This document shows positions 10,144-26,290 of a DNA stretch of 26,290 bases, piece after piece. Made by a program: the position numbers and the translations under genes. The notes beneath the pieces are model-generated. The model ran no database searches and was not told where the DNA came from. It saw nothing but the letters and a program-made list of their open reading frames with translations. Source of the stretch: an archaeon (lineage in GTDB: Archaea; B1Sed10-29; JAJSAI01); contig JAJSAI010000027.1 in assembly GCA_024274695.1 (NCBI GenBank), forward strand, positions 1 through 26,290, in the 5' to 3' direction. The number at the start of each line of letters is the position of its first letter. Within the stretch, counting starts at the first letter, position 1.

Positions 10144-10243
10144 AGGGGAGACACCAAGGTTTCTCCCTCTACCCTCTTCCTTTCCAACATCCTGCATGGA
10201 AAATGAAACGCCCCCGCCGGGATTCGAACCCGGGTTACAGGCT

Positions 10244-10401
10244 GTTCGCGCAGCCCTTTCCTCTCTTTTCCGTGAATGCATCCTACTGGAATACTTGCCC
10301 TTTCTCTTCCACGAACCACTTGCCCTTTCTCTTCCATGAACTACTTGCCCTTTCTCTTTTCCGTGAACGCTTTTCTCTTTCGGGAAAGAGAAAAGGGTTC
10401 T
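10244..10401 (-). other. Intron of tRNA-Arg
   Basis: The 158-nt intron is long for an archaeal tRNA intron. Its 5' part (plus positions 10370-10395) forms an 11-bp perfect hairpin (CTTTTCTCTTT / AAAGAGAAAAG with a 4-nt loop). Its 5' CCCTTTTCTCT can instead pair with AGAGGAAAGGG at its 3' end, closing the intron next to the bulge-helix-bulge. The middle consists of tandem repeats. There is no homing-endonuclease gene. Confidence 0.75.
10294..10368. repeat. Tandem 25-bp repeats inside the tRNA intron
   Basis: Three consecutive units start at 10294, 10319 and 10344. Each begins CTTGCCCTTTCTCTT and continues with CCAYGAAC; the third has two extra T. A fourth, diverged copy (ctttcctctcttttccgtgaatg) lies at about 10255-10277. 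The units have no spacers and no palindromic structure, so this is a simple tandem array. Confidence 0.85.
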
Positions 10402-24715: not shown

Positions 24716-26008
24716 ATGCTTGACATCAAGCTGTTCAGAGAAAACCCTGACCTGATAAAACAGGATCTTGTCAAGAGGGGAGAAGACCCCAGCATTGTTG
24801 ACAGGATCGTTGAGCTGGACAGGGAATGGAGGCAGACCAAGAACGAGCTGCAGAAGCTCCAGCACCAGAGGAACCAGGTCACCAGGGAAATTGCTGAGCT
24901 CAAAAAGAAGGGAGAGGACGCGAGCCAGAAGATCGCGGAAATGAGGGAAGTCAACAAAAGAATAAAAGAAATGGAAGAGAGGGCAAGAAAACTTGAAAAA
25001 GAGAGGGATGACCTGAGGCTCAGGGTCCCGAACCTCACTCACGAGAGCGTGCCAGTAGGAAAGGATGACAGCGACAACGTCACGATCAGGACATGGGGAG
25101 AGCCCATCAAAAAGGACTTTGAGCTCAAGCCCCACCAGGACGTGCTCGAGGCCCTGGGGCTGGCGGATTTTGACGCTGCGGCCCAGGCGAGCGGCAGAGG
25201 ATTCTACTATCTGCTCGGACAGGCCGCGATGCTGGACCTCGCGATACAAAGATTCGCGTTGGACGAGCTCAGGAAAAAGGGTTATGTGATAGTCGAGCCT
25301 CCCCTGATGCTCAGGCGGAGGGCAATGCAGGGCGCGGTGGACCTGAGTGCGTTCGAGGACGTCCTGTACAAGGTGGAAGACGAAGACCTTTACCTGATAG
25401 CCACTTCAGAACACCCCCTAGCGGCCCTGCACATGGACCAGGTGATAGCAGAGGAGAGTCTTCCGCTAAGGTATGCTGGAATAAGCCCGTGCTTCAGGAA
25501 GGAGATAGGATCCCACGGGGTTGACACAAAGGGATTGTTCAGGGTCCACCAGTTCAACAAGATAGAACAGTTCGTCTACAGCATGCCTGAAAAGTCATGG
25601 GAAGAGCACGAGAGAATGATAGCAATAGCAGAAGAACTCTTCCAGAAACTGGAAATCCCGTACAGGGTTGTTAACGTGTGCACGGGGGACCTTGGAGGCA
25701 CTGCTGCCAAAAAGTATGACATAGAAGCGTGGATGGCGAGACAGGGAACTTACAGGGAAGTGGTCAGCTGCTCGAACTGTACCGACTACCAGGCCAGAAA
25801 ACTTAACATCAGGTACCAGAGGAAGAACGGGGAAAGAGGAGTGCTGCACACCCTCAACTCCACAGCAATAGCCACAGGGAGGGCGATGGTCGCGATAATA
25901 GAAAACAACCAACAACCGGACGGCACTGTCGTGATACCGAAAGTGCTCAGACCGTACATGGACGGGCAGGAAGTCCTGGAGCCCAGGAAAAAACCAGTAA
26001 CTTATTAA
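24716..26008 (+). CDS. serS: Seryl-tRNA synthetase
   Basis: SerRS charges tRNA-Ser. The 430-residue protein is the common type, not the rare methanogen type: residues 1-105 form the two-helix coiled-coil arm that grips the long variable arm (MLDIKLFRENPDLIKQDL, then a long charged helix pair). The class II core follows: motif 2 FRKEIGSHGVDTKGLFRVHQF near residues 262-282, TGDLGGTAAKKYDIEAWM, and motif 3 LNSTAIATGRAMVAIIENNQQPDG. All are complete. A TATA-like GGTTTTTAAG at about 24666-24675 and AGGAGAGAG before the ATG mark its own promoter and ribosome-binding site. Confidence 0.97.
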   Translation: MLDIKLFRENPDLIKQDLVKRGEDPSIVDRIVELDREWRQTKNELQKLQHQRNQVTREIAELKKKGEDASQKIAEMREVNKRIKEMEERARKLEKERDDLRLRVPNLTHESVPVGKDDSDNVTIRTWGEPIKKDFELKPHQDVLEALGLADFDAAAQASGRGFYYLLGQAAMLDLAIQRFALDELRKKGYVIVEPPLMLRRRAMQGAVDLSAFEDVLYKVEDEDLYLIATSEHPLAALHMDQVIAEESLPLRYAGISPCFRKEIGSHGVDTKGLFRVHQFNKIEQFVYSMPEKSWEEHERMIAIAEELFQKLEIPYRVVNVCTGDLGGTAAKKYDIEAWMARQGTYREVVSCSNCTDYQARKLNIRYQRKNGERGVLHTLNSTAIATGRAMVAIIENNQQPDGTVVIPKVLRPYMDGQEVLEPRKKPVTY

Positions 26009-26049: not shown

Positions 26050-26158
26050 GGGCCCATAGCTCAGTCTCCCTTCCGCCGCACTGCGGAGGAAGCGGCTGAA
26101 GTGGCAGAGCACCAGGCTTTTAACCTGGGTGTCGGGGGTTCGAATCCCCCTGGGCCCG
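26050..26158 (+). tRNA. tRNA-Lys (anticodon TTT) with an insertion in the D-loop
   Basis: Acceptor GGGCCCA pairs with TGGGCCC and discriminator G follows at 26158. The anticodon arm CCAGG-CTTTTAA-CCTGG gives anticodon TTT. The T-arm is GGGGG-TTCGAAT-CCCCC. The D-stem is GCTC/GAGC, but its loop is about 44 nt long. Removing about 35 nt (26068-26102) restores AGTCTGGCA, the usual archaeal tRNA-Lys D-loop. No CCA is encoded. Confidence 0.9.
26068..26102 (+). other. Probable intron within the tRNA-Lys D-loop
   Basis: The insert forms a stable hairpin: CTTCC-G-CCGC (26070-26079), loop ACT, GCGG-A-GGAAG (26083-26092). Outside it AGTC (26063-26066) can pair with GGCT (26094-26097), leaving TCC and GAA as 3-nt bulges, so a bulge-helix-bulge-like motif can be drawn, though with one unpaired C. 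The exact cut sites are therefore uncertain by a few bases. Confidence 0.65.
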
Positions 26159-26181
26159 CTATAGGGACAACCTACGGTTTT

Positions 26182-26236
26182 ATACCAAGAACCCCCTGGG
26201 TTCTTGGATAATCCAAAAGGCTTCGCCTTTTGGTAT
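26182..26236. repeat. Two adjacent perfect hairpins after tRNA-Lys
   Basis: CCAAGAACCC-CCT-GGGTTCTTGG (26185-26207, 10-bp stem) is followed by CCAAAAGGC-TTC-GCCTTTTGG (26213-26233, 9-bp stem). The outer ATACCAA (26182-26188) and TTGGTAT (26230-26236) are also complementary, so the pair could fold as a cruciform. T-rich sequence follows near 26264-26272. The role (transcript end, protein-binding site or small mobile repeat) is unknown. No gene is seen in the last 130 bp. Confidence 0.7.
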
Positions 26237-26290
26237 TCCCCTATTACCCCTTTCCCTTCTAAATTTTTCTTTACCCTCCTCACCCGAATA

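Follow-up and report, generated by a model that had tools for sequence, protein, structure and literature searches.

A probable relaxed-motif intron in the D-loop of an archaeal tRNA-Lys(TTT) gene, in a genome with one recognisable splicing endonuclease gene of the alpha kind

What becomes of an insert that interrupts a tRNA gene at a non-canonical place, and which enzyme would remove it, is the question raised by the locus at 26050-26158. The window analysed here (26,290 nt) is the whole of a contig (C22) in an 825-kb archaeal assembly that is 91% complete, and its plus strand carries at these positions a tRNA-Lys(TTT) gene with 35 nt inserted in the D-loop. An earlier note on this DNA had recognised this arrangement, and had left it open whether a relaxed splicing endonuclease removes the insert or the tRNA keeps it as an extra arm. 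Judging from sequence comparison, we consider the insert very probably a protein-spliced archaeal tRNA intron, and we infer that it is excised, with ligation of the exons, in the cell. The features of the locus are as follows.

24716-26008, plus strand: serS, serine-tRNA ligase (TIGR00414, E 5e-160), directly upstream of the tRNA-Lys gene.
26050-26066, plus strand: exon 1 of tRNA-Lys(TTT), with the acceptor 5' strand (26050-26056), the D-stem 5' strand (26059-26062) and A14 to C17 (from ARAGORN on the spliced sequence).
26067-26101, plus strand: the 35-nt putative intron, D-loop position 17/17a (from the genome's own tRNA-Lys(CTT), uninterrupted relatives and a comparison of eight genes).
26102-26158, plus strand: exon 2, U17a to discriminator G73 (from gene reading, similarity search and ARAGORN on the spliced sequence).
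26119-26121, plus strand: anticodon TTT (UUU) (from gene reading and ARAGORN on the spliced sequence).

The gene reads GGGCCCATAGCTCAGTC-(35 nt)-TGGCAGAGC...CTTTTAA...GGGCCCG. Its acceptor 5' strand pairs with 26151-26157, G26158 is the discriminator and all the stems are intact. When the 35 nt were deleted, ARAGORN called a perfect tRNA-Lys(ttt) cloverleaf with the D-loop A14 G15 U16 C17 U17a G18 G19 C20 A21. In the intact window ARAGORN found no tRNA, and the Rfam match (38.6 bits) was limited to 26094-26150, the part 3' of the insert. The uninterrupted tRNA-Lys(CTT) of the same genome reads AGTCTGGCTAGAGC across the insertion site, and the spliced D-loop AGUCUGGC agrees with it (precisely, AGCTCAGTCTGGCTAGAGC in the CTT gene and AGCTCAGTC-(35 nt)-TGGCAGAGC in the window gene). 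The insertion point is therefore 17/17a, as fixed by the comparison with the CTT gene, by the spliced D-loop and by the ARAGORN call. The Rfam alignment, which starts at 26094, suggested another reading in which GCUGAAGUGGCAGAGC is the true D-arm and the insert lies before position 10; we rejected it because the CTT gene and the relatives fix 17/17a and a G13-G22 mismatch would remain. The intron mode of ARAGORN, run on the precursor, gave a tRNA-Phe that we considered spurious.

The tRNA-Lys gene starts 41 nt after serS. The serS protein of the window is closest to that of Candidatus Diapherotrites Zod_Metabat.1420 (64% identity), and the order serS, then tRNA-Lys with a D-loop intron, is common to both (L081 in the latter). 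When the first serS relatives were run in ARAGORN, tRNA-Lys appeared uninterrupted or absent; the intron in L081 came to light when these loci were searched with the motif. The contig of the class genome G014 is apparently this same Candidatus Diapherotrites contig, JAFGGZ010000010.1; the intron is identical and tRNA-Lys stands after serS there too. On the 3' side, two bases after the tRNA-Lys gene, a repeat of about 100 nt begins (window 26160-26259). It recurs almost unchanged immediately 3' of tRNA-Arg(CCG) (G000:C26:46794-46889) and at two contig ends (C26, C19). Copies that have diverged are found 3' of tRNA-Lys(CTT) (C19:11180) and at C26:47276, and pieces of it occur near tRNA-Tyr (C32:9248) and within the 37/38 intron of tRNA-Arg(TCG) (C9:13148). 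The repeat looks tied to tRNA genes and is perhaps mobile.

The site is shared within the class. By a similarity search of 61 genomes, and by reading the tRNA-Lys loci fetched from the 19 class genomes, we first found eight tRNA-Lys genes (five TTT and three CTT) interrupted at 17/17a in seven of the 19, that of the window included. These are the TTT genes of the window, G004, G005, G009 and G014, and the CTT genes of G005, G008 and G011; recovery of Lys genes across the class was incomplete, G015 and G018 giving none that was read. Eight genes from seven genomes share the interrupted site, so the interruption is not due to chance. The inserts are 27-35 nt long, and their loops drift freely in sequence and length. 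A motif pattern searched in 394 archaeal genomes matched exactly these eight genes; there were no matches in the 375 genomes outside the class, and a backwards control pattern matched nothing at all. As the pattern includes the splice motif itself, the agreement in all eight genes is not independent evidence for the motif, and what the search shows is its restriction to the class.

The splice motif comprises the following elements, in which a slash within a bulge marks the predicted cut.

26061-26064, plus strand: exon strand of helix H, UCAG, invariant in the eight genes and paired with 26096-26099.
26065-26067, plus strand: 5' bulge UC/U, with the 5' splice site at 26066/26067; YCU in 8/8 genes.
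26068-26095, plus strand: h' stem-loop of the intron (from the fold of the whole precursor, z -2.85, and covariation).
26096-26099, plus strand: intron strand of helix H, CUGA (from the eight-gene comparison and covariation).
26100-26102, plus strand: 3' bulge AG/U, with the 3' splice site at 26101/26102; ANU in 8/8 genes.

In all eight genes the exon bases UCAG (12-15) face an intron YUGN just 5' of the 3' site. The CAG:YUG pairs are always formed, and the outermost pair is U-A in six genes; of the two exceptions, those of G011 and G014, one has U-G and the other U-U. Exon and intron form the 4-bp helix H, with a 3-nt bulge at each splice site (UCAG:CUGA, UCU and AGU in the window), and over the eight genes the bulges read YC/U and AN/U. 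The h' stem of the window consists of CC (26068-26069) with GG (26094-26095), a bulged C26093, and further in CTTCC (26070-26074) with GGAAG (26088-26092) and CCGC (26076-26079) with GCGG (26083-26086). No conserved outer helix h could be drawn, so the strict hBHBh' form is lacking and the 3' site lies outside a full motif. We consider the predicted motif to be of the relaxed HBh' type, following the usage of Marck and Grosjean that PMC4090602 and PMC6379350 describe. That the insert needs a non-canonical splice and folds as a stable hairpin, both claims of the earlier note, agrees with these results. Its further claim, that nothing better than an imperfect bulge-helix-bulge fits, was not supported, h alone being missing from a motif that can otherwise be drawn well.

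Across the eight genes h' varies in sequence while its pairing stays: four genes begin it with G-C, two with C-G and the remaining two with U-A. In 16/16 cases the first two h' pairs were formed (permutation p 0.0024), and the run of h' pairs came to 32 in total, against 5.2 +/- 2.9 in shuffles. By pair count, 92% of cells were paired with a covariation of 0.415, which was reached by 0/500 shuffles and by no slid register, sliding the register lowering the paired cells to 50% or less. The eight sequences are related, so these shuffle tests overstate significance and their figures are not strict probabilities. A minimum free energy alternative, UCAGUC with GGCUGA, keeps most of H and is absent in genes whose h' starts with G-C; for this reason it was set aside.

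In the precursor, the intron CUGA would pair with exon U12-G15, opening the D-stem, and the 4-bp helix H would form with the bulges UCU and AGU at its sides. The tRNA-splicing endonuclease would then cut UC/U and AG/U, freeing the 35 nt, and RtcB would ligate C17 to U17a and so leave the D-arm free to fold. The usual place of cleavage is after the second base of the bulge, and cuts at that place would restore the D-loop exactly. The precursor and mature folds are mutually exclusive, because helix H takes the exon bases of half the D-stem. An intron would be expected to show such exclusion, which would be of no help to an arm that stays permanently in the tRNA.

This bears directly on the extra-arm alternative of the earlier note, in which the hairpin is kept in the D-loop of the mature tRNA. 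The stability of the hairpin would suit it, as would an endonuclease complement of one alpha-type protein without relaxed-specificity loops. It does not account, however, for an intron end complementary to exon positions 12-15 and competing with the D-stem, nor for two conserved bulges placed so that splicing restores AGUCUGG. The insert is, moreover, missing from the genome's own CTT isoacceptor and from some relatives, and its loop drifts freely. We therefore regard retention as very improbable, and splicing, the other branch left by the earlier note, as strongly favoured by a helix and bulges kept in eight genes while the insert changes. A dead gene, with another tRNA-Lys(TTT) serving the cell, is barely credible. 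A second copy could be hidden in what is missing from an assembly that is 91% complete, but the stems are all intact, the motif covaries, and the tRNA-Lys(TTT) found in G004, G005, G009 and G014 is interrupted likewise. The earlier note had pointed to a second, uninterrupted tRNA-Lys(TTT), with this one silent, as the observation that would speak against it; we sought a second tRNA-Lys(TTT) among the Rfam matches and fetched loci that make up the tRNA inventory of the genome, and none was found. The window gene is for this reason probably essential.

The genome has both parts of the machinery that splicing as a protein-spliced intron would use. One RtcB gene (E 1e-173) and one recognisable tRNA-splicing endonuclease gene were found, the latter encoding a 172-aa alpha subunit (L050:1270-1788; TIGR00324, 122 bits with a cut-off of 59.6), a single polypeptide with the N-terminal domain and the catalytic Y, H and K, as in alpha4 enzymes. 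No gene for a second subunit and no fused three-unit protein was found in the genome. The two loops tied to relaxed specificity are defined as an ASL of 11 aa with a conserved YK and a CSL of 15-18 aa with K-P/V-K/R (PMC12397907). Neither insertion is present beside the active site, either against the M. jannaschii structure 1a79 or between YG and PEEALYL. In the two-gene archaeon G027 an insertion, FFGKPVGIRKPKVPEFDRPLELS, stands where the window genome has YGEKEKDKLILS, and the part between YG and PEEALYL, GKPVGIRKPKVPEFDRP, fits the CSL description (PMC12397907). The endonuclease of relaxed type that the earlier note considered is thus not what the genome was found to encode. We infer that the cutting is nevertheless the work of this one alpha protein, which is probably a homotetramer and has no known relaxed-motif loops.

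This last step is at odds with the published view. According to reviews, alpha4-type enzymes cut canonical motifs only (PMC6379350, PMC4033280, PMC4090602), as do alpha2 enzymes, Korarchaeum, which has a specific loop, being the sole alpha2 archaeon with non-canonical introns (PMC4033280); efficient removal of relaxed-motif introns is ascribed to (alpha-beta)2 and epsilon2 enzymes only (PMC6379350). On these grounds (PMC6379350, PMC12397907) the intron might be cut with the help of a beta subunit that escaped the search, or by another enzyme, and not by the single alpha EndA. Such subunits are short and evolve rapidly, and one genome of the class, G001, carries two PF01974 genes. Against this, of the 16 class genomes (out of 19) with a match, 15 have exactly one gene, with an open frame of 171-215 aa, among them the intron-bearing G008, which is 98% complete; and the same search does pick up a second subunit encoded by its own gene in other archaea, G021, G026 and G027 among them. 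We consider a different cutter possible but doubtful. Both G001 genes (L175, L176) are divergent, and either a second subunit or contamination is possible there. G007 is the sole class member with 4 extra residues at the loop site.

Other genes of the genome are also interrupted at unusual places. tRNA-Gln(TTG) (L031, G000:C32, about 10220-10323) has a D-arm intron of about 31 nt, and the adjoining CTG isoacceptor is uninterrupted. In tRNA-His(GTG) (L037, G000:C21:29500-30600, minus strand) an intron of about 44 nt interrupts the T-loop at 59/60; with the insert left in, the T-arm looks truncated. In the class, the tRNA-Lys(TTT) genes of L053 (G004) and L057/L186 (G009) carry two introns, one in the D-loop and one in the T-loop, and the tRNA-Phe gene beside them is likewise interrupted by an intron in its T-loop; the CTT gene of G005 and the tRNA-Lys of G014 have an additional intron at 37/38; and in L185 (G008), L060 (G012) and L195 (G016) the tRNA-Lys(TTT) intron is apparently at 30/31. 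We also observed in the genome a tRNA whose anticodon is TAT (Ile-UAU) and which has an intron at 37/38 (L038, G000:C26:36773-36888); this is unusual, since most archaea read AUA via a modified CAU anticodon.

The intron belongs to a known kind, the non-canonical archaeal tRNA introns. Its pairing with an alpha-only enzyme, as read from the genomes, would challenge the published rule on enzyme types. Either the rule has an exception, or a partner protein went unrecognised, or H, the bulges and h' suffice for an alpha4 enzyme acting on a full-length precursor; from such a precursor the EndA of A. fulgidus is able to excise a 37/38 intron of the bulge-helix-loop form (PMC6379350). We give even chances to the wider proposition that the lone alpha EndA of Diapherotrites, without both loops, removes relaxed-motif introns at many positions (17/17a, D-arm, T-loop, 30/31). 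If so, broad specificity would have been reached by one more independent route, and the published rule that links enzyme type to intron diversity would no longer hold. Since these genomes have one recognisable enzyme only, and that of the alpha kind, the statement that alpha4 enzymes cut only canonical motifs becomes directly testable. A D-loop site conserved over a DPANN class is also added to a field built mostly on Crenarchaeota. The case shows, in addition, why tRNA-Lys may seem missing from such genomes, as ARAGORN and Rfam miss interrupted genes wholly or partly; at the gathering score, Rfam missed those of L053, L057, L177 and L193 altogether.

Non-canonical tRNA introns have been described mainly from Crenarchaeota, Thaumarchaeota, Nanoarchaeota, Korarchaeota and ARMAN (PMC4090602, PMC3218864, PMC8450103). 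PMC4090602 names positions such as 20/21, 22/23 and 25/26 in an open-ended list without 17/17a, and a literature search on Diapherotrites tRNA introns or DPANN splicing endonucleases gave nothing on point. With archaeal relaxed-BHB introns (hBH or HBh') those described here share the location off 37/38, the short length, the exon-intron helix H, the 3-nt bulges, and the occurrence of several per genome and sometimes two per gene, but the host is here a member of the Diapherotrites with an alpha-only EndA. The split tRNA-Lys(CUU) of Nanoarchaeum and Staphylothermus is likewise broken at a non-canonical place (30/31; PMC3218864), apparently the same as that of the tRNA-Lys(TTT) intron in G008, G012 and G016, whereas the window gene is continuous and interrupted in the D-loop. 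The EndA of the window genome has the catalytic Y, H and K of the family, as do the epsilon2 enzyme of ARMAN-2 and the (alpha-beta)2 enzyme of Aeropyrum, and differs from them in missing the ASL or CSL loop. With the alpha4 EndA of Methanocaldococcus jannaschii (PDB 1a79) it is colinear over residues 6-172 of 172 (E 3.5e-33), but it is one residue longer after EALYL and has there a K/R-rich EKRK. The extra residue and an EKRK-like basic stretch are kept in nearly all members of the class, and this clade-specific segment is a candidate determinant of relaxed specificity.
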